Positions 31,501-60,950 of a DNA stretch of 60,950 nucleotides are shown here, piece after piece (the first letter of the stretch is position 1; every line of letters starts with the position of its first letter). The DNA comes from a virus. The position numbers were made by a program, and so were the translations under genes. The DNA lies in IMG/VR virus record IMGVR_UViG_3300044695_004133, positions 1 through 60,950 of that record; one strand, 5' to 3'. Under the pieces are notes generated by a model. The model saw only the letters and a program-made list of their open reading frames with translations, searched no databases and had not been told where the DNA came from.

Positions 31501-32083
31501 AAGGATTTTTTGTATCTTGAAGTGAAACAACATCTCCTGCAACAAGTTCTGTTGCTGGGCTAGAAACAACTACAGTAACTGTAGATCTTGGCGCTGCGCC
31601 ATCGCCAGTTACGCTTACTACGTCAAATGAGTTTCCGCCTGTTGCTCTAGAAAAGAATGATGGGTAATTTGATGTTAATACCAAGGCTTCCCACTTAGAG
31701 CTCTGAATACCATATTCAAAGTCTGTATCCATTAAAGATTGTGGTGGGGCGACTCTAAGTTTATTTACCGCATCCATAAGCGGCTCTGTAAATGTTACTG
31801 TTTCTGCTGGCTCGTCAACAATGATTGCAAGTTGATCGGTAGCAGCCATTGATGCACAGTTGTACTTAAGAGTAATAATTGTCTTTGGCTCATAGCCAAC
31901 TTCATTGTCTACTGAAAAAGATATTGCAGTTAAATTAGGATCGGAGAAGTTGTAGATGACCTTACCTTGTGTCGTATTTGTGATAAGCATCAATCGATCT
32001 TGTCTTACTATTCTTGGAATAATAATCTGATCTAATTCTGGCTTAAATACGTAGTATGCGTGTTCTATTTGTCTTCTTGACAT
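28523..32083 (-). CDS. Large virion structural protein (tail appendage)
   Basis: 1,186 residues without membrane segments. N-terminal strands (YYVFKPELDQIIIPRIVRQDR) and the phrase LMDTDFEYGIQSSKWEALVL (about 116-135) resemble large structural proteins of marine and freshwater phages (recalled, not searched). Repeats of the type H-G/Q-x-x-x-G-x-x-I-x-I/V recur four times (HGLLPGTPILI, HGMQPGAKIKV, HQLQVGYPIRI, HNFVQDQNVTI), so it is built from small beta units. A middle part (about 470-680) and the tail are unique. Probably forms a baseplate-side or fibre scaffold. Confidence 0.75.
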   Translation of the reverse strand: MSRRQIEHAYYVFKPELDQIIIPRIVRQDRLMLITNTTQGKVIYNFSDPNLTAISFSVDNEVGYEPKTIITLKYNCASMAATDQLAIIVDEPAETVTFTEPLMDAVNKLRVAPPQSLMDTDFEYGIQSSKWEALVLTSNYPSFFSRATGGNSFDVVSVTGDGAAPRSTVTVVVSSPATELVAGDVVSLQDTKNPLAEGTFPVETVSADGFTFTYLASGIVSGSISDGSLTSVTGGGIFDNAHIPGGNDSLGLQGWSANSDGAAQSTITITTSTAHGLLPGTPILIGSQNANCSIKGSWRIFNVSSPNQMKFKMDSQVSNPIVTNGVGLYAKPNGYVQHRPHDGGVILSTTDNVCGVRVIRQTRRHFRYQSGKSIQFSTGVKFTPTFDVDQISVAGVLIGNQVVTVRTIQDHGMQPGAKIKVDGVQTAGTYNPWNGKFTVTNVLGTNEFQYIMPITQNLTATDQFPGGVDVTITVYKWEGAATRTGMYNDQNGFFLEYDGTYLYAVRRFSKKDLFGKIAATKFSNTITGINTRFRKQLLVGDQIVIKGANYTVIEIASDTNMKVSPAYKGDSLTNSSYVITQEIRVPQTEWNVDKLDGKGPSGYTLDPALMQMAYIDYTWYGAGFIRFGFRGTEGNIVYCHKMPNNNRNTEAYMRSGNLPARYEAINSPFFSTKLKAGSSGIVGSPLSPTMIVMYVDSVKFWPDQGFLVIKDDTNFEICSYTITNREYNAIAQGYPVNINRRQPMTSYLQGQAVQLSGSSSNATYLPDNTITNGTGTAQVSVQTITNTCAPVISHWGSSVIMDGKFDDDKNFIFTAGMQRFVNVAGSGEVIAKIASKSATSGVATVTTAAPHQLQVGYPIRISDVNTSASITSIVRTSASTIRVTTQGSHNFVQDQNVTISNSVLSRNLQNGQIQTTAIVGVLNGIRTISAVPSSNQFDVILAGVYGYTAQPQTNSSAVESSTFNGTFTVSAVTSNTIQYTIPFGTTIPTSIVTPQGSASQSFGSSAIARPLLSIRIAPSADNGIGRNYGKRETLNTMQLALSSLGILAQGAFLIQGIYNPSAFPTGVNLPGDWETIRIPGGSLAQVIYHDNTGRTGSTVTNPITTIRGGDQAFAFYTDGTGGTNYSATTFDLSKVKDLGTSILSGDGNFKAPGFPNGPDILTIVATNLGLTSGDISARLSWTEAQA

Positions 32084-51307: not shown

Positions 51308-51658
51308 ATGCCAGTAAACAATAAAGCAAACATAGAGAGATATACGGATCCACACCTATACTCCTTCTATGAAATTTTTATTATACATGGGGGTAATTGT
51401 CACATATGTGGTATGCAGATAGATTACTCTGCACCCCGCCAAGCTTTTGTACCTGGATGGAAGTATGGACTACAGCTAGATCATGTAATCCCTTTAACCA
51501 AAGGAGGATCTGACGAGCTTATAAACGTAAAGCCTTCTCACGGTATCTGCAACCTTACTAAAGGTAATAGAACAAATGAGCCAAAGAAACATCCTAGGTA
51601 TGCACCCGTCGATACTTCGTATAGAAAAAAACTTAGGAATAAAATCTCAGTCGACTAG
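51308..51658 (+). CDS. HNH endonuclease
   Basis: 116 residues. Full HNH core: GNCHICGMQIDYSAP (Cys pair), LQLDHVIPLTKGGSDELINVKPSHGICN (the DHVIPLTKGG heart and Asn-His-like helix) and a final Lys/Asn-rich KGNR. The enzymes cut DNA and are found as free-standing homing nucleases or packaging partners. It is leaderless, starting right after a TAATAT box, and the only coding gene between the AT-repeat and the early region. Confidence 0.88.
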   Translation: MPVNNKANIERYTDPHLYSFYEIFIIHGGNCHICGMQIDYSAPRQAFVPGWKYGLQLDHVIPLTKGGSDELINVKPSHGICNLTKGNRTNEPKKHPRYAPVDTSYRKKLRNKISVD

Positions 51659-51770
51659 CATTTCATATTTCACAAAATGTTAATATATTTTTATCATGTA
51701 TGATCACGAATAAATAAATGTCCGTTTTGTCTATTTAGTGCGCCCATAGGCTACTAACTTTGAGCGTGAG

Positions 51771-51786
51771 TGTGATGCTAATCACA
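51771..51786. promoter_or_regulatory. Crp/GlxR-type site 1
   Basis: TGTGA-TGCTAA-TCACA, a perfect two-half-site palindrome. It lies 38 bases before the TGTCAG element of the first early promoter. The rest of 51659-51897 holds an ATGTCCGTTTT motif (51718) but no gene. Confidence 0.72.
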
Positions 51787-51824
51787 AAAATAGTTTGAGA
51801 ATACTTGCCAGTAACCCCCCTTTT

Positions 51825-51852
51825 TGTCAGTCCCCCCTGCTAGAGTTATACT
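51825..51852 (+). promoter_or_regulatory. Early promoter 1
   Basis: TGTCAG (51825-51830), 10 bases, TAGAGT (51841-51846), then a better TATACT (51847-51852). Either could serve as -10. Followed by a hairpin and GAAAGG. Confidence 0.65.
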
Positions 51853-51861
51853 ATAAAGAAA

Positions 51862-51880
51862 ATCAAGAAAGGTTCTTGAT
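51862..51880 (+). other. 5'-UTR hairpin before first early gene
   Basis: ATCAAGAA-AGG-TTCTTGAT, an 8-bp perfect stem with a 3-base loop that hides one GAAAGG copy; a second GAAAGG follows directly (51883-51889). It could set translation of the gene. Confidence 0.55.
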
Positions 51881-51897
51881 AAAGAAAGGAAAACAAA

Positions 51898-52104
51898 ATG
51901 TTTTCACTAAGTTATAAAGTCCAATACTCGGACACCGAGTTTTCTACTTGCTTAGGTGTTCTAATGAATACCGAACAAGATGCTAATGAGTATCTTGACC
52001 TACTAGCCCTAAGAGGCACTATCTTAGAAACTAATCTAAGAGAGTTAGAAAATTACAAGCCTAGCACTCGCAAGGTTTATGCTACTACTAGAAGTTGGGA
52101 GTAA
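51898..52104 (+). CDS. Small early protein
   Basis: 68 residues, a beta strand (MFSLSYKVQYSDTEF) followed by a helix (TEQDANEYLDLLALRGTIL). No family recognised. Ribosome site AAAGAAAGG is 8 bases before ATG. First gene of a run of overlapping micro-genes to 53066. Confidence 0.65.
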   Translation: MFSLSYKVQYSDTEFSTCLGVLMNTEQDANEYLDLLALRGTILETNLRELENYKPSTRKVYATTRSWE

Positions 52105-52108
52105 TCTA

Positions 52109-52213
52109 ATGAACGATTATCTTGATTATATGGACGAAATCTACGAGGAACTCGTAGAGGAGTTCGGACACGAAATCGAGTCCGTGTGTGACCATAATCA
52201 CACTAACGCCTAA
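52109..52213 (+). CDS. 34-residue acidic micro-protein
   Basis: MNDYLDYMDEIYEELVEEFGHEIESV, then CDHNHTNA: a strongly acidic helix and a short His/Cys tail. The Crp-like site 52187-52202 lies inside its last codons, so DNA-binding and coding functions overlap. No family recognised. Confidence 0.55.
   Translation: MNDYLDYMDEIYEELVEEFGHEIESVCDHNHTNA
52187..52202. promoter_or_regulatory. Crp/GlxR-type site 2 (inside coding sequence)
   Basis: TGTGA-CCATAA-TCACA, perfect. Overlaps the 3' end of the 52109-52213 gene and precedes promoter 2 by 30 bases. Confidence 0.7.
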
Positions 52214-52231
52214 CGGCGTGTCGCTATACAA

Positions 52232-52253
52232 TGTCGGCGCTATGCGCTACAAT
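52232..52253 (+). promoter_or_regulatory. Early promoter 2
   Basis: TGTCGG (52232-52237), 10 bases, TACAAT (52248-52253), then ACGAAAG before ATG 52289. Confidence 0.72.
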
Positions 52254-52288
52254 TCCTACTATAACTACTAACGAAAGAAGAACAGATA

Positions 52289-52441
52289 ATGACTATCACT
52301 TATACACTATGGCAAGGCTCTCAACTATTAGCCGTAAATCAAAAGGCTAACAAGCCCGAAGAAATCTTAGCCGTAATAAAAGAATTAGAAAAACTAGGTA
52401 AGGGTTTCACTTACAACATTAGAGAAGTAGAGGTAAAGTAA
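52289..52441 (+). CDS. 50-residue micro-protein
   Basis: MTITYTLWQGSQLLAVNQ, then a charged helix (KPEEILAVIKELEKLGKGF) and a final strand (TYNIREVEVK). A beta-alpha-beta unit; no family recognised. Its TAA overlaps the next ATG (TAATG). Confidence 0.58.
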   Translation: MTITYTLWQGSQLLAVNQKANKPEEILAVIKELEKLGKGFTYNIREVEVK

Positions 52442-52605
52442 TGATGACTAAATGGGATACTATTCAGGCAGATGTAGCAGACGCTTATGTCTATCTAGAA
52501 GAAGAAGAAGCCTATAACAAGGCACTAGCAGAGGGCTTAGATTTGCGCCTTAGCGAATACGAAGAAGAAGAAATGTCCGCACTAACATTAGATTGGGATA
52601 ACTAA
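52441..52605 (+). CDS. 54-residue acidic helical micro-protein
   Basis: Starts ATGATG at 52441 (coupled to the preceding stop). Almost all helix with many Glu (YLEEEEAYNKALAEGLDLRLSEYEEEE). Resembles DNA-mimic-like acidic phage peptides only in charge; no role proven. Confidence 0.55.
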   Translation: MMTKWDTIQADVADAYVYLEEEEAYNKALAEGLDLRLSEYEEEEMSALTLDWDN

Positions 52606-52607
52606 TA

Positions 52608-52763
52608 ATGACTATAAACGGATTTGAGTTATACATAACTAGCGACTACGGATTAGAGTTTGATAGTTTCTTAGGGGCTATCTACTTACCTTGGCACACT
52701 ATCCTAATTACTACCGCCCTACTAATCGCCTATAAGATTTACAAGAGAAAGAAGAATAAGTAA
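52608..52763 (+). CDS. 51-residue single-pass membrane micro-protein
   Basis: Polar N-terminus (MTINGFELYITSDYGLEF), one transmembrane helix (GAIYLPWHTILITTALLIAY) and a basic tail (KIYKRKKNK), so the tail should be cytoplasmic. Its stop overlaps the next gene's ATG. Function unknown. Confidence 0.6.
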   Translation: MTINGFELYITSDYGLEFDSFLGAIYLPWHTILITTALLIAYKIYKRKKNK

Positions 52764-52876
52764 TGACTACTAATCGCTTACTAACTACCGCCGTCCAATT
52801 ACTACTAGCGGGCGTAACTATCCCGCTACTAATCGCAGTAATCAAAGACATAAAAAATGGGGGACTAAATGAGTAA
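52763..52876 (+). CDS. 37-residue membrane micro-protein
   Basis: MTTNRLLTTAVQLLLAGVTIPLLIAVIKDIKNGG...: one transmembrane helix with a basic/polar end. Shares its start with the previous stop (TAATG) and overlaps the next gene by 8 bases. Two membrane peptides in tandem could form a pair. Confidence 0.58.
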   Translation: MTTNRLLTTAVQLLLAGVTIPLLIAVIKDIKNGGLNE

Positions 52877-53066
52877 ATCACAATTAGAAAAAGATTTAGA
52901 AATCAAAGAAAGTTTTATAGATTTACTAAATGACATTTATCCAACTGTAAAAATTGGTTACTCAACTTTTACACCCGCCGAAATCTTAGAGTGTTGCGAT
53001 CCCGTTGCGTTTGCGATTGGTTTAGTAGAACACGAAGATTATTTAGCGGAATTAGAAAATGAATAA
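52869..53066 (+). CDS. Small early protein
   Basis: 65 residues, charged helix (LEKDLEIKESFIDLLNDIY), then a short strand region and CCDPVAFAIGLVEHEDYLAELEN. No family recognised. It ends the first run of micro-genes; the next 260 bases hold a module, a Crp-like site and promoter 3. Confidence 0.6.
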   Translation: MSKSQLEKDLEIKESFIDLLNDIYPTVKIGYSTFTPAEILECCDPVAFAIGLVEHEDYLAELENE

Positions 53067-53102
53067 ATAAATAACGGCGTGTCGGCTTGACAAAATCAAG
53101 CT

Positions 53103-53181
53103 GGCCCGCAACTACTGCGGAGTCGGGCGTGTCGTTACGACATTGTTATAAAAATCCCTGAATTCTACGGCGTGTCGATTT
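53103..53181 (+). repeat. Intergenic module A
   Basis: GGCCCGCAACTACTGCGGAG hairpin, GTCGGGCGTGTCGTTACGAC, then ATCCCTGAATTC. It shares the first two blocks with module B. The gap 53067-53325 contains this, a GCGTGTCG copy on each side, site 3 and promoter 3, and no gene. Confidence 0.8.
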
Positions 53182-53204
53182 GACAGACAAATCGGACATT
53201 TTGA

Positions 53205-53220
53205 TGTGATTAGTATCACA
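53205..53220. promoter_or_regulatory. Crp/GlxR-type site 3
   Basis: TGTGA-TTAGTA-TCACA, perfect, 48 bases before the TGTCAG of promoter 3. Confidence 0.75.
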
Positions 53221-53268
53221 CGGCTTGAGCGTCTCACTATTTGGATTTACTGGCTAGTAATGTGAAAA

Positions 53269-53290
53269 TGTCAGTGGGTTCGTGTATAAT
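53269..53290 (+). promoter_or_regulatory. Early promoter 3
   Basis: TGTCAGTGG (from 53269), then TATAAT (53285-53290), 10 bases after TGTCAG. ACGAAAGAAGG precedes ATG 53326. Confidence 0.82.
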
Positions 53291-53325
53291 TCCATACATA
53301 ACAACAAACGAAAGAAGGTCTGCCA

Positions 53326-53532
53326 ATGGCTACCAAACTATACACAATCGAAAGCCTACTTGTAGGGAAAAACTATCGCTCACGCAATCGCCACTTTTCT
53401 GGCGAAATTGTATCTGCCGAACACCGCCCAGAAATTTGGTATGGTGAAAAAACTGAAGCGTATCTAATCGAAATAAATGCGGGCGGTCTGCGAAATAAAT
53501 TCGCAACAATCGCAGTAAAGGTTGGTGAATAA
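53326..53532 (+). CDS. Small early protein
   Basis: 68 residues, mostly beta (MATKLYTIESLLVGKNY, YLIEINAGGLRNKFATIAVKV). Basic patch NYRSRNRHF could bind nucleic acid. No family recognised. Followed by two more small genes without a gap. Confidence 0.65.
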   Translation: MATKLYTIESLLVGKNYRSRNRHFSGEIVSAEHRPEIWYGEKTEAYLIEINAGGLRNKFATIAVKVGE

Positions 53533-53534
53533 TA

Positions 53535-53660
53535 ATGGGATACATCGAAATTTTCCGAATGGACAACGAGGGTGCTGGCTGGGTAGATTTATCCGAAGCA
53601 ACACCCGATGAATTATTCAACATCGAATTAGGATTATTAGAGGAAGGTGCGTTCGAATGA
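53535..53660 (+). CDS. 41-residue micro-protein
   Basis: MGYIEIFRMDNEGAGWVDL, then SEATPDELFNIELGLLEEGAFE: a strand and an acidic helix. Its TGA overlaps the next ATG (ATGA). No family recognised. Confidence 0.57.
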   Translation: MGYIEIFRMDNEGAGWVDLSEATPDELFNIELGLLEEGAFE

Positions 53661-53782
53661 ACTTAGACGAATTCAAACAACACGTTATCGCACAACGTGA
53701 GGCAAGCAAGGCGCAAGCCTTGTCAGTGCTATCTGCTACAATTACAAAATCAACAAACGAAAGGGAAAACCTAAATGGGTAG
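53657..53782 (+). CDS. 41-residue micro-protein whose 3' end carries promoter 4
   Basis: MNLDEFKQHVIAQREASKAQ, then ALSVLSATITKSTNERENLNG. The codons from ALSVL to TNEREN contain TGTCAG, TACAAT and ACGAAAGGG, that is, the promoter and ribosome site of the next gene. So the end of this protein is dictated by control DNA, and the real peptide may be shorter or unimportant. Confidence 0.5.
   Translation: MNLDEFKQHVIAQREASKAQALSVLSATITKSTNERENLNG
53721..53742 (+). promoter_or_regulatory. Early promoter 4 (inside coding sequence)
   Basis: TGTCAG (53721-53726), 10 bases, TACAAT (53737-53742), ACGAAAGGG follows, ATG at 53775. Confidence 0.72.
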
Positions 53783-53921
53783 AATGAAAGAATTATACAC
53801 TCAGATTTTAGAGTGTGATACCTGCTACGGAAATGGCTGGCTATACTACGGAGATGAAAATAATTATGATGTAGAGGCTTGCCAATGTAATCCGCTCAGT
53901 TTTTTTCAGGAGAATAAATAA
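53775..53921 (+). CDS. 48-residue zinc-finger-like peptide
   Basis: MGRMKELYTQILECDTCYGNGW with ACQCNPLSFF: a C-x-x-C (CDTC) and C-x-C (CQC), plus the GNGW turn known from DnaJ-type Zn sites. One metal could be bound. Overlaps the previous gene by 8 bases; the next gene starts at the very next base. Confidence 0.62.
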   Translation: MGRMKELYTQILECDTCYGNGWLYYGDENNYDVEACQCNPLSFFQENK

Positions 53922-54047
53922 ATGAAAATTGCTGAAATGTGGATTTGCGATAATTGCGATACTCTCGCTATTGTGTCGGTGGCAACTGATACAATAGTAA
54001 TAACACAATGTAAATGTATAACTAACGAAAGGGAAACTAATGTATAA
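53922..54047 (+). CDS. 41-residue zinc-ribbon-like peptide containing promoter 5
   Basis: MKIAEMWICDNCDTLAIVSV, then TDTIVITQCKCITNERETNV: C-x-x-C and C-x-C. It also spans TGTCGG, TACAAT and ACGAAAGG for the next gene, so coding and control overlap. Ends 8 bases into the next gene. Confidence 0.57.
   Translation: MKIAEMWICDNCDTLAIVSVATDTIVITQCKCITNERETNV
53974..53995 (+). promoter_or_regulatory. Early promoter 5 (inside coding sequence)
   Basis: TGTCGG (53974-53979), 10 bases, TACAAT (53990-53995). ACGAAAGGG precedes ATG 54040. Confidence 0.72.
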
Positions 54048-54243
54048 ACTAACTTGCGCCTATGATAGCAACGCCCCCCACTGGTCTGCCGAATACGAAA
54101 ATGAATTTGGTGCGTGGGAAAACTTTTTCCGTTTTACCGATTGGGGTTCTGCTAATGAATACTCAACTGTAAATTTATTTACACCAACTGGCAAATGCTA
54201 TACAAAACTATTTTATCGCACAGGAGAGGTCGTAGTAAAATGA
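54040..54243 (+). CDS. Small early protein
   Basis: 67 residues with many aromatics (YENEFGAWENFFRFTDWGSANEY) and a beta C-terminus (CYTKLFYRTGEVVV). No family recognised. Its TGA overlaps the following ATG by ATGA. Confidence 0.63.
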   Translation: MYKLTCAYDSNAPHWSAEYENEFGAWENFFRFTDWGSANEYSTVNLFTPTGKCYTKLFYRTGEVVVK

Positions 54244-54431
54244 TGACTAGAAAAGACTACATAGCAACCGCAGAAATTCTAAAGTATGCTAGCAACAAAA
54301 CTCACCCTGCTGTATTTTCTAAAATTGTAAATGATTTCGCTGAAATGTTTGCGAAAGATAATGAGCGATTTGATGTAAAACGATTTCACGAAGCGAGTGG
54401 GTATAATGTTCCTAACTTCTCTTCAAGATAA
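54240..54431 (+). CDS. Small helical early protein
   Basis: 63 residues from ATG 54240 (MMTRKDYIATAEILK); the longer frame from 54195 is rejected because it sits in the previous gene and lacks a ribosome site. Charged helices (KYASNKTHPAVFSKIVNDFAE). Pattern of actinophage proteins with IATAEILK-type starts (recalled). No function known. Confidence 0.65.
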   Translation: MMTRKDYIATAEILKYASNKTHPAVFSKIVNDFAEMFAKDNERFDVKRFHEASGYNVPNFSSR

Positions 54432-54537
54432 AGTAAAACGCATTCAGGAATTGCGTCGCAGTAATGCGGCGCAACCTGTTCGCAATAAAAAAAAATACAC
54501 ACGCAAAATAAAACATAAAAATAAATTCGATCAATAA
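54406..54537 (+). CDS. 43-residue strongly basic peptide
   Basis: MFLTSLQDKVKRIQELRRSN, then NKKKYTRKIKHKNKFDQ: about 30% Lys/Arg, so it should bind nucleic acid. Overlaps the preceding gene by 26 bases in another frame. No ribosome site is obvious; moderate confidence. Confidence 0.5.
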   Translation: MFLTSLQDKVKRIQELRRSNAAQPVRNKKKYTRKIKHKNKFDQ

Positions 54538-54560
54538 TTAATTAGAACAGGTGTTCGAAA

Positions 54561-54625
54561 GCCCGCAGAGCTGCGGAGTCGGGCGTGTCGTTACGACTGT
54601 GATCTAAAACACCCTGGAATTTGCA
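54561..54625 (+). repeat. Intergenic module B
   Basis: GCCCGCAGAGCTGCGG hairpin, AGTCGGGCGTGTCGTTACGAC identical to module A, a degenerate Crp-like half (TGTGA at 54598), and CCCTGGAATTTGCA. Ends at promoter 6. Confidence 0.8.
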
Positions 54626-54640
54626 GCGTGTTGCGTAAAA

Positions 54641-54662
54641 TGTCGGTCCATTCTGCTATACT
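54641..54662 (+). promoter_or_regulatory. Early promoter 6
   Basis: TGTCGG (54641-54646), 10 bases, TATACT (54657-54662) with TGC before it (extended -10). AACGAAAGG precedes ATG 54691. Confidence 0.8.
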
Positions 54663-54690
54663 TACAACCTTACCAACGAAAGGCCAACTA

Positions 54691-55410
54691 ATGAAATTGA
54701 AACGCTCTAATGATAGAAAGGTGGCTAACCTTGTCACAAAAAATGGAAAGCAAGCCGCAATTGCTAACACGTTCGGATTACCCGCAGGAAAAGATTTCTC
54801 ATGTCCTGGCGCTACGTCTATCTGCGAGACTGTTTGCTATGCAGGCAAATTGGAAAAACTCTTCAAGGGAGTAAAAACTAATCTGCTACACAATTGGGAA
54901 TTGCTACGCAATGCCGATATGGAAACAATGTATCAATTGCTAAATGAAATGATTATTGATTTCAAGGCTGATTGTGTAAAGAAAGACGCTCCTATGCTAT
55001 TCCGTATCCACTGGGACGGAGATTTCTTCAATGATTTCTATACTTATGCCTGGAAGAATGTAATCAATGAGCACACCGATGTTCAATTCTGGGTTTACAC
55101 ACGTGTAAAGTCTGCAGCGCTTATTCTAAAGGATGTATCTAATTTATCTCTTTACTATTCTACCGACGATGAGAATAAAGAAATCGGCCACGAACTAAAA
55201 GTAAATGAGGGAATTCGCCTTGCATATTTAGGGAAGACATTCGCCGTCACCGAAAGCACAATGAAAGAATTGACGGGCAAGCCTGGTGCTAAGTGCCCTG
55301 AAAATATGAAATCAATTCCACTAATTAGCAATGCAGGTTCTGCGTGTGTATCGTGTGGGTTATGTGTTTATGGTAAAGCAGATATTAGATTTAGCGCAAC
55401 TAAAAAATAA
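54691..55410 (+). CDS. GP88-family-like protein, Cys-rich
   Basis: 239 residues from ATG 54691 (MKLKRSNDRKVANL), placed by promoter 6 and AACGAAAGG; the longer frame from 54628 includes the promoter. The pattern AIANTFGLPAGKDFSCPGAT, CETVCYAGK, HWDGDFFNDFYTYAWKN and FWVYTRVKS matches the phage gene-product-88 family (recalled). Ten Cys occur, seven of them in CPGATSICETVCYAG and CVSCGLC, so a metal or Fe-S site is likely. Function of the family is not settled. Confidence 0.75.
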   Translation: MKLKRSNDRKVANLVTKNGKQAAIANTFGLPAGKDFSCPGATSICETVCYAGKLEKLFKGVKTNLLHNWELLRNADMETMYQLLNEMIIDFKADCVKKDAPMLFRIHWDGDFFNDFYTYAWKNVINEHTDVQFWVYTRVKSAALILKDVSNLSLYYSTDDENKEIGHELKVNEGIRLAYLGKTFAVTESTMKELTGKPGAKCPENMKSIPLISNAGSACVSCGLCVYGKADIRFSATKK

Positions 55411-55422
55411 GGAGAAATAAAA

Positions 55423-55545
55423 ATGGCGGAGCTTAATTATTTTAATGCATTAATAAATTCTGTTGTTGGTGATCAAGATCAGAAAAAAGCTGCTAAAGAG
55501 TACTTAGCAGAAATAGATCCCGACATATGGGGCCAGGAGGAATAA
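55423..55545 (+). CDS. 40-residue micro-protein
   Basis: MAELNYFNALINSVVGDQDQ, then KKAAKEYLAEIDPDIWGQEE: one or two acidic helices. AAGGAGA lies 9 bases before ATG. Resembles small C-terminal helices of actinophage proteins; no function known. Confidence 0.6.
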   Translation: MAELNYFNALINSVVGDQDQKKAAKEYLAEIDPDIWGQEE

Positions 55546-55547
55546 AA

Positions 55548-55625
55548 GGCCCGCAATACTACGGGGTTATCCACAGGTTTACGGGAGTTATCCACAAACC
55601 CTGGAAATTTGTGAGATTTATCACA
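55548..55625 (+). repeat. Intergenic module C with two perfect DnaA boxes
   Basis: GGCCCGCAATACTACGGGG, then TTATCCACA at 55567-55575 and again at 55588-55596 (21 bases apart, same face), AACCCTGGAAATT, then the Crp-like site TGTGA-GATTTA-TCACA (55610-55625). Confidence 0.82.
55610..55625. promoter_or_regulatory. Crp/GlxR-type site 4
   Basis: TGTGA-GATTTA-TCACA, perfect, 28 bases before TGTCAG of promoter 7. Confidence 0.75.
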
Positions 55626-55653
55626 AGGCTTATGCGGGGAATAGATTAGGTAA

Positions 55654-55675
55654 TGTCAGTGGGGTATGCTAAAAT
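55654..55675 (+). promoter_or_regulatory. Early promoter 7
   Basis: TGTCAGTGG (from 55654), TAAAAT (55670-55675), with TGC just before it. AACGAAAGG precedes ATG 55705. Confidence 0.78.
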
Positions 55676-55704
55676 ACTCTTATTCCAACAACGAAAGGTA
55701 ACAA

Positions 55705-55929
55705 ATGTCTAATCTAATCAAAGTTCCACACACAATAACTTTCGAGGCTATCATTAACCTTGATACTATCCCTGCAAACTTATTGCCACGCTTAATTGCT
55801 CTTGATGAAAAAACAATGACAGAGATGTGCAAGGAAGCAACGCTACACGCCCTTGCTCAATCTAATGTATTAAAAACTGCTAATGAGTTTAACACTTGGG
55901 CTGAAATGACTATCAAGGAAGGTAACTAA
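55705..55929 (+). CDS. Small early protein
   Basis: 74 residues, beta N-terminus (VPHTITFEAIINLDTIPANL) and long helix (KTMTEMCKEATLHALAQSN). No family recognised. Two bases separate it from the next gene. Confidence 0.65.
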   Translation: MSNLIKVPHTITFEAIINLDTIPANLLPRLIALDEKTMTEMCKEATLHALAQSNVLKTANEFNTWAEMTIKEGN

Positions 55930-55931
55930 CA

Positions 55932-56201
55932 ATGGGAAGCATAACTGCACTAGGTATTCAGGATAGCGTGTTAGATTTAGAAACACAATTAGCCTATCAC
56001 TTACAGGGTAATCATTACCCACCCGTTCCACTTTCTATGGTGCAACCTTGCATAGATGCTATTGACGCATACTATGATGAGGATTTTGATCGACAGATAA
56101 AGATGCCTGAAGGCGTATCTTATAAAGGATTAGATACAGCACCTGCCTCCGCTATTATTGACCAACACCACTTAGGATTTTGGCTACCTGAGTGTGACTA
56201 G
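55932..56201 (+). CDS. Small early protein
   Basis: 89 residues with LGIQDSVLDLETQLAYHLQG and IDAYYDEDFDRQIKMPEGV, ending HHLGFWLPECD. The codons at the end are part of Crp-like site 5. No family recognised. Confidence 0.65.
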   Translation: MGSITALGIQDSVLDLETQLAYHLQGNHYPPVPLSMVQPCIDAIDAYYDEDFDRQIKMPEGVSYKGLDTAPASAIIDQHHLGFWLPECD

Positions 56202-56208
56202 TATCACA
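56193..56208. promoter_or_regulatory. Crp/GlxR-type site 5 (overlaps gene end)
   Basis: TGTGA-CTAGTA-TCACA, perfect; it overlaps the TAG stop of the preceding gene and lies 28 bases before promoter 8. Confidence 0.75.
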
Positions 56209-56236
56209 CGACACTCCCCCTAGAAATGGGGGGAAA

Positions 56237-56258
56237 TGTCGGTGGTATCCGCTATAAT
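56237..56258 (+). promoter_or_regulatory. Early promoter 8
   Basis: TGTCGGTGG (from 56237), TATAAT (56253-56258). AACGAAAGG precedes ATG 56288. Confidence 0.85.
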
Positions 56259-56287
56259 ACTACTACCAACCAAACGAAAGGAAACAA

Positions 56288-56446
56288 ATGACAAACGCAA
56301 CACTAGAAGTAGGTCAAACCTACACAACAACAACAAGCGGTATCACAGGAGTTATCAAAGCCGTTGATAACCACCCTAGCGGAGTAAATCGTATTCTGCT
56401 TGATGTAGAAGGCAAGGAACGCTGGACAAGCGCAACTGCTAACTAA
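56288..56446 (+). CDS. 52-residue beta-rich micro-protein
   Basis: MTNATLEVGQTYTTTTSGIT, then GVIKAVDNHPSGVNRILLDV and EGKERWTSATAN, like a small SH3-type barrel. Own promoter and ribosome site make it solid despite its size. No family recognised. Confidence 0.7.
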   Translation: MTNATLEVGQTYTTTTSGITGVIKAVDNHPSGVNRILLDVEGKERWTSATAN

Positions 56447-56474
56447 ATAAGCATAACGAAACAGGGACAGTTTA

Positions 56475-56525
56475 GAGAGTGTTCTAGTCCAATGTCGTAA
56501 GTAAGAACTCTCCACCTTCGGGTGG
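56475..56525 (+). ncRNA. Possible structured 3'-UTR RNA (two stacked hairpins)
   Basis: GAGA(GT)GTTCT pairs with AGAAC-TCTC (9 bp, 2-base bulge; 56475-56512), directly followed by CCACC-TTCG-GGTGG with a UUCG loop (56512-56525). No T-run. It fills the gap between the stop at 56446 and promoter 9. Confidence 0.5.
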
Positions 56526-56528
56526 AAA

Positions 56529-56550
56529 TGTCAGACCCCCCTGCTATACT
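56529..56550 (+). promoter_or_regulatory. Early promoter 9
   Basis: TGTCAG (56529-56534), 10 bases, TATACT (56545-56550) with TGC before it. AACGAAAGG precedes ATG 56579. Confidence 0.82.
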
Positions 56551-56578
56551 AATCAACCAACCAACGAAAGGAAATACA

Positions 56579-56995
56579 ATGAGCAGACAAATCACAGTAA
56601 AGGTAGCAACAAGCAAAGTAATCAAGGCACTAGAGGCTCGTCTAGCAACGCTAGAAAATGATTACAACACACAGACAGCAAAGGAAGCAAAGTTCGGCAA
56701 AGCGCAAGAAGCGTGGCGCAAGGAAATTGCTAAGTGGGCTATTGCCAACTTCTCAAAGGCTGAGAACCTTCGCACAAACTATCGTCAATGGAACAACACT
56801 CTCAATGTTGATTTTGACATCATCACAAAGGAAGGCAACTTCCCTGCTGAACCTGAAAAGGACTTTGAGGTTATCCATCAGCACCAGTATCGTGAGATGA
56901 AAGAGGACATCACAAATGCCCTAACAATTCTCAAGATGACAGATGAGGAAACAGTAAATGCTTCTACAATGAAGCAGATTGCTAAGTATCTCTAA
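56579..56995 (+). CDS. Helical early protein
   Basis: 138 residues from ATG 56579 (MSRQITVKVATSKVIKALEA); the ATG at 56522 is inside the promoter. Long coiled-coil helices (LEARLATLENDYNTQTAKEA) then a mixed C-terminal half (VDFDIITKEGNFPAEPEKDF). Basic N-terminus. Similar proteins occur among actinophage early genes (recalled). No function known. Confidence 0.75.
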   Translation: MSRQITVKVATSKVIKALEARLATLENDYNTQTAKEAKFGKAQEAWRKEIAKWAIANFSKAENLRTNYRQWNNTLNVDFDIITKEGNFPAEPEKDFEVIHQHQYREMKEDITNALTILKMTDEETVNASTMKQIAKYL

Positions 56996-57022
56996 ATAGG
57001 TTTTGGGGGGTTAGCACACAAA

Positions 57023-57088
57023 GTCTAGACACCTAAACCCAAACGACCTGAGTAAGTCGCAAAACTGCTCAACCCTTCGGGGCTAGAC
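57023..57088 (+). ncRNA. Possible three-way-junction RNA
   Basis: Closing stem GTCTAG/CTAGAC (57023-57028 with 57083-57088), hairpin CGAC/GTCG (57044-57059, 8-base loop) and hairpin CCC-TTCG-GGG (57073-57082). It follows the stop at 56995 and ends just before a promoter; the -35 region overlaps its 3' strand. Confidence 0.48.
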
Positions 57089-57113
57089 AAACTCTAGTTC
57101 TAAATGCTATAAT
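57084..57113 (+). promoter_or_regulatory. Promoter of a different type (no TGTCRG element)
   Basis: TAGACA (57084-57089), 18 bases, TATAAT (57108-57113), then CTAAGGAAC before ATG 57141. It is the only strong early promoter without the TGTC element and without GAAAGG. Confidence 0.65.
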
Positions 57114-57140
57114 TAAAATCCCTACTAACTAAGGAACAAA

Positions 57141-57383
57141 ATGAAAAATCGTTATCGTGTAGAAATTTATGATGAAGTAAAAGCAAATGATTTAACTATT
57201 TATTCAGAGCAAGGTGTAGACAAAGAATATCTAACTGAATTAGTTTTTTCTAATATGCGCCGATTTAACGGAACAATACGTGCTTATGTTTATGACAACT
57301 TAAAGAAAAAGAAAACAACAGCGCTATTCTTACCAATGGAATTTATTCCTAAGAAAACTGAACTAACTAATTTAGTTGGCTAA
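57141..57383 (+). CDS. Small early protein
   Basis: 80 residues. Beta-alpha pattern (RYRVEIYDEVKANDLTIYSE, EYLTELVFSNMRRF, TIRAYVYDNLKKKKTTALFL), reminiscent of a ferredoxin-like fold. No family recognised. Followed by an 8-bp hairpin TGCAGCGA/TCGCTGCA (57389-57413). Confidence 0.68.
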   Translation: MKNRYRVEIYDEVKANDLTIYSEQGVDKEYLTELVFSNMRRFNGTIRAYVYDNLKKKKTTALFLPMEFIPKKTELTNLVG

Positions 57384-57416
57384 AAAGTTGCAGCGATCTT
57401 CTCTTTCGCTGCAGCT

Positions 57417-57495
57417 GGCCCGCAGAGCTGCGGGGTTATCCACAGCCTTACGACCTACCTGTGGAAAACCCTGAAATTTTGTGATATTGATCACC
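57417..57495 (+). repeat. Intergenic module D with DnaA boxes
   Basis: GGCCCGCAGAGCTGCGGGG hairpin, a perfect DnaA box TTATCCACA (57436-57444), a box on the other strand as TGTGGAAAA (57460-57468), ACCCTGAAATTTTG, then a near-perfect Crp-like site TGTGA-TATTGA-TCACC (57480-57495). Confidence 0.82.
57480..57495. promoter_or_regulatory. Crp/GlxR-type site 6 (9 of 10)
   Basis: TGTGA-TATTGA-TCACC, 38 bases before TGTCAG of promoter 10. Confidence 0.6.
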
Positions 57496-57533
57496 CTAGA
57501 CAATTCGGACATCTTGTAACTAACTATAGATAA

Positions 57534-57555
57534 TGTCAGTGGGTTATGTTATACT
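57534..57555 (+). promoter_or_regulatory. Early promoter 10
   Basis: TGTCAGTGG (from 57534), TATACT (57550-57555). ATCGAAAGG precedes ATG 57587. Confidence 0.82.
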
Positions 57556-57586
57556 CAGTTTATCAACCAATCGAAAGGAAATAAAA

Positions 57587-58594
57587 ATGGCTCATAATCT
57601 CGAAGTCGAAAATGGCGAAGTTGCTTTCGCTCTCCGTGGCGCTCCTGCTTGGCACAACCTTGCAAACCGCATCTTTACAAAAGATGAGGAAGTCACAACT
57701 CAAACAATGCTTGACGAAGCAAAACTTTCCAATTGGAATGTTCGCTTGTCTCCACTGACTGACCACATTTCAGAATCTTGGAATGATGTATCTCAGGCAT
57801 CTCTTGTCATTCGTGACAACCCATTCAATAAGGGAATCGATGTTCTCGCAACTGTCGGCAAGCGTTACAAGCCTGTGCAGAATGAAGAACTATTCGCATT
57901 CGCTGATGCAATTCACGATGCCAATGCTGATTGCCGTTGGGAATCTGCTGGCTCACTAAAAAAGGGTAAAGTTGTTTTCGGAACTGTGGACATTCCACGC
58001 ACTATGGTTCTTGACCCACAAGGCGCTAACGATGAGACAAAACTTTATCTTATCGTATGGACATCACACGATGGTTCTGTTGCTGTTCAAGCAGCCGTTA
58101 CACCTGTTCGTGTTGTATGCCAAAACACTTTGAATCTTGCAATGCGTAATGCTAAGCAATCATTCAAAATTCGTCACACACAATCTGTTGAAGGTCGCAT
58201 TCAGGTTGCTCGTGAAACTCTTGGGCTTGCTCTTGGATACTTTGATGAATTCGAAGTTCAAGCAAAAGCGCTTTACTCTCAGGCAATTACTGATGCTGAA
58301 TTCTCTAAGTTGATTCAAACAATTTATCCTAAGCCAGATAAAGATGCATCTAAGGTTGCACTAACTAAGTGGGAGAATAAGGTTGTCTTGCTTGATGACC
58401 TTTACCATAACTCACCAACTAACGCTACAATCAAGGGAACTAAGTGGGGTGCGTTCAATGCACTAACTGAGCGTCTTGATTATTTCCGTTCAGGTCGTGG
58501 CAATTCTGAAACACTAATGGCTGGTGCATCAGGATTTGACCCAATTCTAACCGCTGAAAAAAATAAGTTGTATCGAATGGTTGCAACTTTCTAA
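57587..58594 (+). CDS. DUF932 (phage/plasmid-like TIGR03299) protein
   Basis: 335 residues from ATG 57587 (MAHNLEVENGEVAFALRG); the ATG at 57533 lies inside the promoter. The opening followed by G-A-P-A-W-H-N-L, and YKPVQNEELFAFADAIHD, VCQNTLNLAMRN and KIRHTQSVEGRI are hallmarks of the DUF932 family found on phages and plasmids. Function is unproven. It is the largest early gene, has its own module and promoter, and is followed by a tRNA gene. Confidence 0.9.
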   Translation: MAHNLEVENGEVAFALRGAPAWHNLANRIFTKDEEVTTQTMLDEAKLSNWNVRLSPLTDHISESWNDVSQASLVIRDNPFNKGIDVLATVGKRYKPVQNEELFAFADAIHDANADCRWESAGSLKKGKVVFGTVDIPRTMVLDPQGANDETKLYLIVWTSHDGSVAVQAAVTPVRVVCQNTLNLAMRNAKQSFKIRHTQSVEGRIQVARETLGLALGYFDEFEVQAKALYSQAITDAEFSKLIQTIYPKPDKDASKVALTKWENKVVLLDDLYHNSPTNATIKGTKWGAFNALTERLDYFRSGRGNSETLMAGASGFDPILTAEKNKLYRMVATF

Positions 58595-58633
58595 ATAAAA
58601 AAAATCCTAGGCAAGATTTAAAACTGCCTGCAA

Positions 58634-58707
58634 GATCTCTTAGCTCAGTTGGTTAGAGCGCTACCCTGTCACGGTAGAGGCCACGGGTTCAAGTCCCGTA
58701 GGGGTCG
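58634..58707 (+). tRNA. tRNA-Asp (GTC)
   Basis: Cloverleaf: acceptor GATCTCT/AGGGGTC with two G-T pairs, D stem GCTC/GAGC, anticodon stem CTACC/GGTAG with loop CTGTCAC (anticodon GTC), T arm ACGGG-TTCAAGT-CCCGT. CCA is not encoded. On the opposite strand to the other three tRNAs. Confidence 0.93.
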
Positions 58708-58725
58708 CATCTCAATATATGAGAA

Positions 58726-58785
58726 GGCCCGCAGACCTGAAGGCCAAATGTCCGTTTTACGACTTTTGTAAAAAAACCCCTGAAA
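58726..58785 (+). repeat. Intergenic module E (degenerate)
   Basis: GGCCCGCAGACCTGAAGGCC, AATGTCCGTTTTACGACTTT, then ACCCCTGAAAGC. The hairpin is broken and the DnaA and Crp-like boxes are absent. Precedes promoter 11. Confidence 0.7.
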
Positions 58786-58796
58786 GCTATTGTATA

Positions 58797-58818
58797 TGTC
58801 AGTGGTGCCCGCTATAAT
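58797..58818 (+). promoter_or_regulatory. Early promoter 11, leaderless
   Basis: TGTCAGTGG (from 58797), TATAAT (58813-58818), then 6 bases to ATG 58825, so the start site should be the ATG itself. Confidence 0.82.
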
Positions 58819-58824
58819 ACTCGT

Positions 58825-59478
58825 ATGACAAAATATGAGAAGTATACCTGGGTGTGCACGGGAGACTGTGATGCACTAATCGAATATACAATTAAAGATG
58901 GATTTGGATGGCCTGCAGGTGAGATGAACCTCACATGCCGTTGCAATTCAAACTGCACATTATTGTCAGTGGAAGATGCTACAATACCATATACAGATAC
59001 ACCCCTACCAACGAAAGAGGAAAAAATGGAAACAACAGAAAACGTAGTTCCAGATACATATAACCCTAATCTATTAGTAACCTACAAAGTTATTCGTGGA
59101 TACTCAGATGCAGAATATGCAACTGATAAGGTTACATCAATTGAATGGGACCTGCACAATGCCCGTCAAGCACAAAAAACTAACGGCGTTTTAAATGGCA
59201 AGATTGATGCAGTTAAGGAAATTATCTGCGAGGCATATGCAGACTCACAAGACCAAGACACATTGCGTGAAATTGCTGAAGCGCTATCAATTGAATTAAT
59301 TAAGGAAGTTGAGTGGACCGCATCTATCGAAGTTAGCGGAACATATTCTTACAACATTCTTGAAAATGATTATGACTTAGACCTTGAGTCAGAAATTACA
59401 GATGCTATCTTTGCTGAATCAAACAATGGTAACATTGAAATTGGTGACCAAGAAGTTTGTAATGTGAGGGAAGCATAA
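58825..59478 (+). CDS. Two-part early protein with internal promoter and start
   Basis: 217 residues. The first 67 residues carry five Cys in pairs (VCTGDCD, CRCNSNC), so may bind metal; residues 68-217 are a beta and acidic helix domain (VTYKVIRGYSDAEYATDKVT, EIADALSIELIKEVEW-like). An internal promoter (58964-58985), ACGAAAGAGG and Met68 at 59026 would yield the 150-residue part alone. So one frame may give a long and a short product. TAATG overlap with the next gene. Confidence 0.72.
   Translation: MTKYEKYTWVCTGDCDALIEYTIKDGFGWPAGEMNLTCRCNSNCTLLSVEDATIPYTDTPLPTKEEKMETTENVVPDTYNPNLLVTYKVIRGYSDAEYATDKVTSIEWDLHNARQAQKTNGVLNGKIDAVKEIICEAYADSQDQDTLREIAEALSIELIKEVEWTASIEVSGTYSYNILENDYDLDLESEITDAIFAESNNGNIEIGDQEVCNVREA
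58964..58985 (+). promoter_or_regulatory. Early promoter 12 (inside coding sequence)
   Basis: TGTCAGTGG (from 58964), TACAAT (58980-58985), then ACGAAAGAGG and the in-frame ATG at 59026. Confidence 0.75.
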
Positions 59479-59690
59479 TGTATTTCGAGTTGACTGCTCC
59501 CGATAGGCTATCTATGGAGATGGCCTATTGGGATGCTCAGATGATTGGGCTGGACCCAACTGCATTATCACCGTTGACTTTCAACATTGGAACTGGTAGT
59601 ATTGAGAAGGTAAGTCGCATTCGTGATAAGTATAATCTAACAGAATCATACGTATCAGACTACGAGCCAACAGGATATACAGGGAGATAA
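59478..59690 (+). CDS. Small early protein
   Basis: 70 residues (MYFELTAPDRLSMEMAYWDA, then GLDPTALSPLTFNIGTGSIE). Starts in the stop of the previous gene. Helix-strand mix; no family recognised. Confidence 0.68.
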   Translation: MYFELTAPDRLSMEMAYWDAQMIGLDPTALSPLTFNIGTGSIEKVSRIRDKYNLTESYVSDYEPTGYTGR

Positions 59691-59692
59691 AA

Positions 59693-59848
59693 ATGGATTA
59701 TCAGGATGGATTTGAAGACGGGGTCAAGTTTACTCGTGAAGTAATCATTGCCAATATTAGAGTATGGGCTGAAAAGTCTGAAGATGGAGCAGCATACGAT
59801 GATATTGCTGACCGACTAGAATTTGGAACCGTTGACTATGACATCTGA
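59693..59848 (+). CDS. 51-residue micro-protein
   Basis: MDYQDGFEDGVKFTREVIIA, then NIRVWAEKSEDGAAYDDIAD: an acidic helical protein. The motif DGFEDGVKFTRE is common at the start of small actinophage proteins (recalled). GGGAG precedes ATG. Overlaps the next gene by 11 bases. Confidence 0.65.
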   Translation: MDYQDGFEDGVKFTREVIIANIRVWAEKSEDGAAYDDIADRLEFGTVDYDI

Positions 59849-60047
59849 AGATCTAACTAGATGGATTGGCTGCGATCAATGCGGTACAGCTCAAGCTAGG
59901 TATCTAATTAAACTAGTAGACGGTGAGCTTTTCTTTTGCCACCACCACTATAATAAAAACAAAGAGGCCCTTGACAAGGTCGCCTTTGAAATGATAGAAT
60001 TGAATAAAACCGAAGAAGTACCTCAACTAGAAAAGGCGGAAATATAA
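59838..60047 (+). CDS. Actinobacterial-type zinc-ribbon protein (DUF7455-like)
   Basis: 69 residues from ATG 59838 (MTSEDLTRWIGCDQ). CDQCGTAQARYLIKLVDGELFFCHHHYNKNKEAL gives C-x-x-C ... C-x-x-H, the pattern of a short zinc-ribbon family widespread in Actinobacteria (DRCDRCGAQA...ELLFCAHH; recalled). This is one of the better hints at the host phylum. TAATG overlap with the next gene. Confidence 0.72.
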   Translation: MTSEDLTRWIGCDQCGTAQARYLIKLVDGELFFCHHHYNKNKEALDKVAFEMIELNKTEEVPQLEKAEI

Positions 60048-60451
60048 TGGGAGATAGAGCAAACTTTGGATTCGTCCAACCTAACGGAAATACAATTGTA
60101 CTATACGGTCACTGGGCTGGACATCAAATGCTAGCAAATTTAGCAGAGGCGGTCATTAAGGCCCAAGGACGTTGGTCGGACCCTTCATATGCAACACGTA
60201 TTACAATCAGTCATATGATTGGTGAAGGTTGGGCAATGGAGACAGGCTGGGGCTTGCACGTAAATGAGATTGGTGACAATGAGCACAAGATTGCTGTTGT
60301 CGATTTTCAGCAACAAACATTCAGTCTACACGAAGAGGCGCCTTATTCGGATGAATCAAATAAGGTCCGTGGAATGAAGAATGAAGCAATCTTTACACAG
60401 GACCTAAGTAACTTCTGTGAAAAGTATTCAGACCAATTGGTTCGAGTATAA
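60047..60451 (+). CDS. Conserved early protein (MGDRANFGF type)
   Basis: 134 residues. MGDRANFGFVQPNGNTIVLY, GHWAGHQMLANLAEAVIKA, SYATRITISHMIGE and ETGWGLHVNEIGDNEHKI are highly characteristic of a family present in many actinophages (recalled), function unknown. Starts at the stop of the zinc-ribbon gene. It is followed by a structured RNA and a terminator. Confidence 0.82.
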   Translation: MGDRANFGFVQPNGNTIVLYGHWAGHQMLANLAEAVIKAQGRWSDPSYATRITISHMIGEGWAMETGWGLHVNEIGDNEHKIAVVDFQQQTFSLHEEAPYSDESNKVRGMKNEAIFTQDLSNFCEKYSDQLVRV

Positions 60452-60460
60452 CTAATTAAT

Positions 60461-60547
60461 CTAAGGGTGCCCCTACTAGTCTTCGCAGGCCAGGGGTTAA
60501 CTAAAGCATCGGATTTTACTTTCGTTGGTTACCGATAGCAGCCTTAG
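60461..60547 (+). ncRNA. Candidate three-way-junction RNA upstream of terminator
   Basis: Closing stem CTAAGG/CCTTAG (60461-60466 with 60542-60547), hairpin CCCCT/AGGGG (60470-60474 with 60492-60496) and a bulged hairpin GCATCGG/CCGATAGC (60506-60512 with 60532-60539). Two 13-base stretches, GGTTAACTAAAGC and GGTTACCGATAGC, are similar. No start codon. Confidence 0.6.
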
Positions 60548-60554
60548 TAAGAAT

Positions 60555-60580
60555 CCCTGGATCATGTCCAGGGTTTTTTA
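60555..60580 (+). terminator. Intrinsic terminator of the early cluster
   Basis: A 7-bp stem CCCTGGA/TCCAGGG with a 5-base loop (60555-60573) followed by TTTTTTATT. Confidence 0.92.
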
Positions 60581-60582
60581 TT

Positions 60583-60661
60583 GCCCGCAACAGCTGAGGG
60601 TATATTATTCTGTTTACGATGTCAATATAAAAAGCCCTGAAAATTTGTGATCTTGACCACA
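60583..60661 (+). repeat. Intergenic module F
   Basis: GCCCGCAACAGCTGAGGG, GTTTACGATG, AGCCCTGAAAATTTG and a near-perfect Crp-like site TGTGA-TCTTGA-CCACA (60646-60661). Followed by a different perfect palindrome, GGTGTG-AAA-CACACC (60677-60691). Confidence 0.78.
60646..60661. promoter_or_regulatory. Crp/GlxR-type site 7 (9 of 10)
   Basis: TGTGA-TCTTGA-CCACA, 46 bases before TGTCAG of promoter 13. Confidence 0.6.
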
Positions 60662-60676
60662 TAGCTTGGAAAATGT

Positions 60677-60691
60677 GGTGTGAAACACACC
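60677..60691. promoter_or_regulatory. Perfect palindrome GGTGTGAAACACACC
   Basis: A 6-bp inverted repeat with a 3-base centre, 16 bases before the TGTCAG of promoter 13; a likely operator of a different regulator. Confidence 0.55.
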
Positions 60692-60707
60692 TATAGGGTA
60701 TTCCAAT

Positions 60708-60729
60708 TGTCAGTGGTCCATTGTATAAT
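60708..60729 (+). promoter_or_regulatory. Early promoter 13
   Basis: TGTCAGTGG (from 60708), TATAAT (60724-60729). AACGAAAGG precedes ATG 60757. Confidence 0.85.
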
Positions 60730-60756
60730 TAAGCCATATCAACGAAAGGATATAAA

Positions 60757-60950
60757 ATGCCAAATTGGTGTTACAACACATTAACTATCCAAGGACCTAA
60801 GTCTGAGGTAGATATGATTAAAGATAGATTGAATAAGCCTTTTACATTAGCACAAGAGACATTTGGTATGGGTGATATCTCTACTATGGGGTTCCCCACC
60901 AAAATTGAACAGGTAAGTTATTCTAATCCTGTCTTTGCTTTCTTTAATAT
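60757..60950 (+). CDS. Api92-like ferredoxin-fold protein, partial
   Basis: The first 64 residues are visible (MPNWCYNTLTIQGPKSEV...). MPNWCYNTLT is the signature start of phage Api92-type ferredoxin-like proteins (recalled), which usually continue for another 100-200 residues. The C-terminus lies outside the window. Own promoter and GAAAGG site. Function unproven. Confidence 0.78.
   Translation, partial: MPNWCYNTLTIQGPKSEVDMIKDRLNKPFTLAQETFGMGDISTMGFPTKIEQVSYSNPVFAFFN

Follow-up and report, generated by a model that had tools for sequence, protein, structure and literature searches.

Which protein reads the short palindromes that precede the promoters at one end of a viral genome fragment, and to what effect? 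We addressed this question in an IMG/VR virus record (IMGVR_UViG_3300044695_004133; 60,950 bases; 38.9% GC), the whole of which is referred to here as the window. An earlier note on this DNA had described seven Crp/GlxR-type palindromes (TGTGA-N6-TCACA) ahead of promoters that carry a TGTCRG element. This sequence is the consensus of GlxR from Corynebacterium, a protein of the actinobacterial Crp family. The arrangement proved to be a real, strongly selected regulatory feature, and it probably serves class-I activation of a (probably early) phage gene block by a Crp/GlxR protein of the host.

Promoters were defined as TGTCRG-N10-TAnnnT, with the predicted start at the first base of the -10 element plus 12. 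The five perfect palindromes and two one-mismatch palindromes (57480 and 60646) lie where the earlier note had placed them, and a third one-mismatch site, which it had missed, lies at 58920. The claimed gap of 28 to 48 nucleotides between palindrome and TGTCRG also holds (i.e., 38, 29, 48, 28, 28, 38, and 46 nucleotides for the seven sites in order). The palindromes and promoters are as follows, with centres given relative to the predicted start.

51771..51786, no strand: perfect palindrome, centre -74.5; box 51825, -10 at 51841; next open reading frame (ORF) 51898-52104
52187..52202, no strand: perfect palindrome, centre -65.5; box 52232, -10 at 52248; next ORF 52289-52441
53205..53220, no strand: perfect palindrome, centre -84.5; box 53269, -10 at 53285; next ORF 53326-53532
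55610..55625, no strand: perfect palindrome, centre -64.5; box 55654, -10 at 55670; next ORF 55705-55929
56193..56208, no strand: perfect palindrome, centre -64.5; box 56237, -10 at 56253; next ORF 56288-56446
57480..57495, no strand: one-mismatch palindrome, centre -74.5; box 57534, -10 at 57550; next gene DUF932
58920..58935, no strand: one-mismatch palindrome (TGAGATGAACCTCACA), centre -64.5; 28 nucleotides before TGTCAG box 58964, -10 at 58980
60646..60661, no strand: one-mismatch palindrome, centre -82.5, about 2 bp off the main -84.5; box 60708, -10 at 60724
51825..60729, plus strand: 13 TGTCRG-N10-TAnnnT promoters, box at -28 to -23, no conserved -35 hexamer
plus strand: promoter boxes at 51825, 52232, 53269, 53721, 53974, 54641, and 55654
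plus strand: promoter boxes, continued, at 56237, 56529, 57534, 58797, 58964, and 60708

The 13 promoters of the window are all on the plus strand, within 51.8 to 60.7 kb; the full minus strand has no copy. Besides the TGTC box they have a good -10 element and often a G at -14. TGTCRG alone was not enriched as a promoter signal in the window (40 found versus 39.75 expected). Eight of the 13 promoters have an upstream palindrome with at most one mismatch (five perfect and three one-mismatch); the palindrome at 56193..56208 overlaps the stop codon of ORF 55932-56201. Perfect palindromes are far in excess of expectation (5 versus a mean of 0.08 over 300 first-order Markov sequences, none of which had more than 2). 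Matches with zero or one mismatch numbered 8, versus an average of 2.76 (standard deviation, 1.74) over 100 shuffles; a single shuffle also gave 8. Spacers of 0 to 5 and 7 to 14 bases gave no perfect palindrome in the window.

The same link between site and promoter was present in 80 related IMG/VR loci (L005-L084; 1.32 Mb) that were found with the DUF932 protein. The 6-base spacer occurred at 469 sites in these relatives, versus 0 to 12 for each of nine other spacers tested. With the window included, 468 of 474 perfect sites and 312 of 386 one-mismatch sites fell inside 60-bp promoter windows, which make up 5.0% of the DNA. Inspected by eye, four of the six perfect sites outside these intervals precede a variant TGTC box (L039, L043, L044, and L055), one a TGTCAG box with a variant -10 element (L017), and one a TTGACA-type promoter (L030). 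The larger relatives all had perfect sites (16 of 16 searched; 2 to 8 each). In the two of 117.0 and 115.0 kb, one block holds 16 of 17 and 14 of 16 TGTC promoters, respectively. The earlier note had named equal frequency of the palindrome elsewhere in the genome as a refutation of its reading, and the outcome favoured the note: the perfect sites of these two records (7 and 8) are all confined to a single block of 7 to 8 kb, although five one-mismatch sites lie outside it. After duplicates from the relatives and the window were merged, and promoters that lay closer than 130 bases to a contig start or had no script-assignable ORF were excluded, 775 distinct promoters remained. These had 305 perfect, 194 one-mismatch, and 35 two-mismatch sites.

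The palindromes are also phased relative to the predicted start; in the window itself, their centres stand near -64.5, -74.5, or -84.5, in steps of one helical turn. Perfect sites among the 775 promoters peak at -64.5 (55), -74.5 (92), and -84.5 (38), with neighbours within 1 bp, and lesser peaks stand at -106.5 (8), -95.5 (5), and -54.5 (3). One-mismatch sites show the same pattern of distances, with 31 at -54.5. To reduce the weight of shared ancestry, we counted each pairing of a downstream gene family with an offset (range, -112 to -50) only once. The 35 events for perfect sites had a best period of 10.5 bp (R, 0.76) and the 37 events for one-mismatch sites a best period of 10.25 bp (R, 0.84); neither value was matched by any of 5,000 random sets. 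An on-phase window (within 1 bp of six positions) was picked after the data had been seen, and the period test is independent of it. Offsets within single gene families differ by whole turns (e.g., -54.5, -64.5, and -73.5/-74.5 in family 4; -63.5/-64.5, -75.5, -84.5, and -106.5 in family 8), which is the pattern expected from an activator contacting the polymerase from one face of the DNA. A series of measurements on Escherichia coli CRP has the same period (PMC6301791). In the DUF932 gene family, a perfect site stands at -74.5 in 78 of 81 promoters.

These distances bear on two other modes of action. Repression of the promoters has a precedent in coliphage T1, in which cAMP-CRP represses the pir, dam, and recE promoters (PMC6737242, in the part available). 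However, among the 499 distinct promoters with a site of zero or one mismatch in the stretch searched, the closest site lies at -44.5 (a single case) and the others are at -53.5 or further, from where blocking of the polymerase is hard to see; we regard repression as very unlikely. Alternatively, the bound host protein could displace an Lsr2-like silencer from the AT-rich phage DNA without touching the polymerase. Related Streptomyces phages carry Lsr2-like genes, and the accessible part of PMC7002338 describes a host regulator that counter-silences phage promoters in Corynebacterium glutamicum. There, however, the operator worked over about 25 bp around the silencer peak, whereas positions here follow the helical turn, and counter-silencing would be a highly improbable explanation.

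Sequence variation indicates that the half-sites themselves are maintained. Across six promoter families, mean entropy was 0.00 to 0.26 for the ten half-site bases versus 0.59 to 1.19 for the six core bases, in a sample (promoters with at most three mismatches at the stated offset) whose choice favours low half-site entropy. One family had 11 distinct cores among 54 distinct promoters while its half-sites were fixed. Among 249 distinct sites, the first core base was A in 1% and the last was T in 1%; the outer flanks were likewise mirrored (C in 3% before and G in 1% after). The mirrored flanks and core ends fit a symmetric dimer. GTG or CAC of the half-sites is affected in 31 of 227 one-mismatch matches, and the mismatches divide between the far half (117) and the near half (110). 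The sites might instead be functionless leftovers of duplicated promoter cassettes, and a CCCTGGAAATTTGTGA-like sequence does precede several of them. This idea is largely refuted and hardly credible: half-sites are fixed while cores vary, offsets move by whole turns within families, and the 7-base spacer control is nearly empty.

This control was also applied beyond the close relatives. Scanning IMG/VR for the palindrome followed by a TGTC promoter returned at least 119 stretches with the 6-base spacer versus 7 with the 7-base spacer, and the latter held one match each with no common spacing. Among the 119 stretches listed, 256 of 300 distinct pairs lay within 1 bp of the six positions, and 118 stretches shared at least one ORF with the window's family, the exception being L165. 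For the palindrome followed by TTGACA-N17-TAnnnT, at least 120 stretches were found versus 42 for the 7-base control. Of 127 distinct pairs among the 120 listed, 48 were at -53.5; broader groups stood at -62.5 to -65.5 (22) and -72.5 to -75.5 (22), and the rest were scattered. The -53.5 peak partly reflects descent because several of these contigs are close relatives, and the 7-base control also holds one cluster (10 of 45 pairs at one gap). Seventy of the 120 TTGACA-type contigs listed share no ORF with the window's family (E 1e-5).

Because the site precedes promoters of two types and occurs in phages that differ, a host protein would be the simplest binder. The alternative is a phage-encoded dimeric regulator, not Crp-like by sequence, that binds TGTGA-N6-TCACA and times the phage genes. 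The cyclic nucleotide monophosphate-binding domain (PF00027) was found in none of 44 phage records (the window, 16 relatives, and 27 further records; many are fragments). The Crp-type helix-turn-helix (HTH) domain (PF13545) was found above cut-off in none of 17 records, many of them also fragments; small ORFs in 5 of the 17 gave faint matches below it (E 0.009 to 0.016). A rough recognition-helix pattern had one unconvincing match in two whole-length records. Ten of the 17 records contain ORFs of about 50 amino acids (L094-L101) with a faint HTH resembling sigma region 4, below the family cut-off; they are possible phage transcription factors. These ORFs and the faint PF13545 matches are what a phage regulator could be drawn from. 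Set against them are the negative domain searches and the same site and spacing rule in contigs sharing no detected ORF with the window's family, and we consider a phage regulator unlikely.

Taken together, the phasing, the near-invariant half-sites with variable cores, the recurrence, and the absence of a detected phage Crp point to an activator of the Crp family supplied by the host. We propose that the palindromes bind a Crp/GlxR-family dimer made by an actinobacterial host. The dimer would bind on the face of the helix suited to polymerase contact, some five to ten turns ahead of the start, and would recruit or steady the polymerase, presumably via the C-terminal domain of the alpha subunit (class I). 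The predicted targets are the promoters that lack a -35 hexamer and combine a good -10 element with a TGTC box at -28 to -23, and the outcome would be transcription of a block of small, probably early phage genes. Class-I recruitment is proposed because an upstream activator would help most at a promoter that lacks -35 contacts.

Phasing, half-site conservation, recurrence, and the lack of a detected phage Crp bear out the part of the earlier note's Crp/GlxR reading that concerns transcription; its further claim, that the phage reads the host's cAMP or nutritional state, goes beyond this evidence. It is conceivable, though we hold it only tentatively, that several actinobacterial phage lineages (probably from fresh water) condition their main gene block on host cAMP-Crp, such that the infection programme follows the energy state of the host, and that the actinobacterial polymerase has a class-I register of its own (about -53.5, -64, -74.5, and -84.5). 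The same host Crp, acting by class I, could equally well provide a promoter that is strong regardless of nutrition, with near-consensus sites filled even at low cAMP; this possibility, a rival to sensing and not to Crp binding, seems evenly balanced to us. In its favour, perfect half-sites are kept in most site-bearing promoters (305, 194, and 35 with zero, one, and two mismatches, as above). Nothing speaks directly against it, apart from the promoters that have no site, which imply some division of labour between promoters.

Several observations weigh against activation by a host Crp-family protein. Five of the 13 window promoters (boxes 53721, 53974, 54641, 56529, and 58797) have no palindrome with zero or one mismatch, and 241 of the 775 promoters have no site within two mismatches. 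A class of 36 distinct promoters has its site at -69.5/-68.5, half a turn off phase; the promoter at box 55654 has its counterpart site at -69.5 in many relatives, versus -64.5 in the window. CGACACGC or GCGTGTCG stands between palindrome and box in 35 of these 36 promoters, but also in 63 of the 445 on-phase ones; a second factor setting the -69.5 geometry is therefore an after-the-fact guess. The phasing events are not fully independent because families share similar promoter cassettes, some of which look duplicated. Moreover, the register of -64.5, -74.5, and -84.5, measured from a predicted and unmapped start, does not agree with Escherichia coli class I (-61.5, -71.5, and -82.5), where CRP gave a factor of 5.8 at -64.5 versus 763 at the optimum of -61.5 (PMC6301791, in the part available). 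This shift of about 3 bp lowers the case for an E. coli-type arrangement and not for one that works like class I; the distance to the -10 element differs in any case. Unlike the phage sites, the mapped CRP sites of Mycobacterium tuberculosis are concentrated from -60 to -40 and from +1 to +20 (PMC4117774, likewise in part). Finally, the Streptomyces phages Jay2Jay and Coruscant (Stanwilliamsviridae), which resemble the window's phage in a DUF932 protein (about 50% identity) and a ribonucleotide reductase, had no palindrome in the stretches read (22.6 and 25.0 kb); these had one and no TGTC promoter, respectively, and TTGAC-type promoters instead. The lake phage DSL-LC01, which has a related structural protein, had no perfect site, four one-mismatch sites, and no TGTC promoter. 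The trait is thus not general in actinophages, since none of these three phages had a perfect site as searched.

The promoters stand in a distinct part of the window. Left of about 50 kb, the minus strand carries most long ORFs; among the ones searched are a tape measure protein, a portal protein, a virion structural protein, a ribonucleotide reductase, and a glycosyltransferase. A plus-strand run of mostly small ORFs begins at about 51 kb and is probably driven by the TGTCRG promoters; its position and gene size suggest early timing. Its extent and named ORFs are as follows.

51308..60950, plus strand: small-ORF block with TGTC promoters, mostly small ORFs
51308-51658, plus strand: HNH endonuclease
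54691-55410, plus strand: GP88 protein; promoter without a site of zero or one mismatch
57587-58594, plus strand: DUF932 protein; promoter box 57534 with a one-mismatch site

The host is indicated indirectly. WhiB, an actinobacterial mark according to the accessible part of PMC10202952, was found in all 10 relatives of at least 96 kb and in 11 of 17 records in all, the window fragment itself not being among them. Among hand-picked records, it was found in 15 of 21 of the TTGACA type and in 3 of 6 further ones of the TGTC type. WhiB in the relatives suggests an actinobacterial host, and the low GC content makes Nanopelagicales a fair guess; we take such IMG records to be of freshwater origin. 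A literature search for Nanopelagicales with Crp or cyclic AMP gave nothing on a host Crp among the matches listed. We also considered a cyanobacterium, because L085, a 109.9-kb contig with WhiB, TGTC promoters, and Crp-type palindromes, belongs to a cyanobacterium-named metagenome-assembled genome (5.4 Mb). The only WhiB match in that assembly lies on L085 itself, so L085 is probably a misbinned actinophage, and this candidate was rejected. Separately, the virion structural protein of the window (28523-32080) is closest to T4-like cyanophages (about 39% identity), whereas the DUF932 protein is closest to those of Streptomyces phages. In the accessible part of PMC12143481, fragments of T4-like cyanophages in the genome of a single Nanopelagicaceae cell are dismissed as a false positive; mosaic actinophages of this kind might be an alternative reading of those fragments.

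Other motifs accompany the promoters. TTATCCACA, the consensus DnaA box, occurs at 55567, 55588, and 57436 of the window; in 1.38 Mb (relatives L005-L084 plus the window) there were 351 copies in one orientation versus 57 in the other, with about 8 per strand expected from base composition, and it is often paired just upstream of a Crp palindrome. GGCGTGTCG (window 52215, 53076, 53126, 53169, and 54582) has 322 copies, and its complement 115, between genes of the window and relatives; it sits between site and promoter in the half-turn-off class and is possibly the site of a second regulator. The perfect palindrome GTCGTTACGAC has two copies (window 53131 and 54587). ATGTCCG, often as ATGTCCGAATT, lies upstream of both promoter types (window 51718, 52573, and 58748; L059, L233, and L234).

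These results suggest that, across a broad range of actinobacterial phages, many promoters are tied to a single global regulator of the host. Whether phages follow the nutritional state of the host becomes testable by shifting a single site by 5 or 10 bp, and hundreds of natural spacing variants are on offer for reading the class-I geometry of the actinobacterial polymerase. A literature search for phage promoters with Crp or GlxR gave no such arrangement among the matches listed, in a body of text that left most subscription papers and all preprints outside.

Parallels to parts of the arrangement exist in known systems. In the MotA-dependent middle promoters of phage T4, a box near -30 replaces the -35 hexamer; the phage promoters described here also have a box instead of a -35 hexamer, but the TGTC box is nearer to the -10 element (10 bp). 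The CRP motif of M. tuberculosis resembles that of E. coli (PMC4117774). Coliphage T1 provides a case of host CRP acting on phage promoters, although there the three promoters named above are repressed, and the available part of PMC6737242 reports no phased array of sites. Like the lac-type class-I CRP promoters of E. coli, as presented in the accessible part of PMC6301791, the phage promoters have TGTGA-N6-TCACA upstream of the polymerase with a period of about 10.5 bp. They differ in a register about 3 bp further out and in a TGTC box at -28 with no -35 hexamer, and their activation is predicted.

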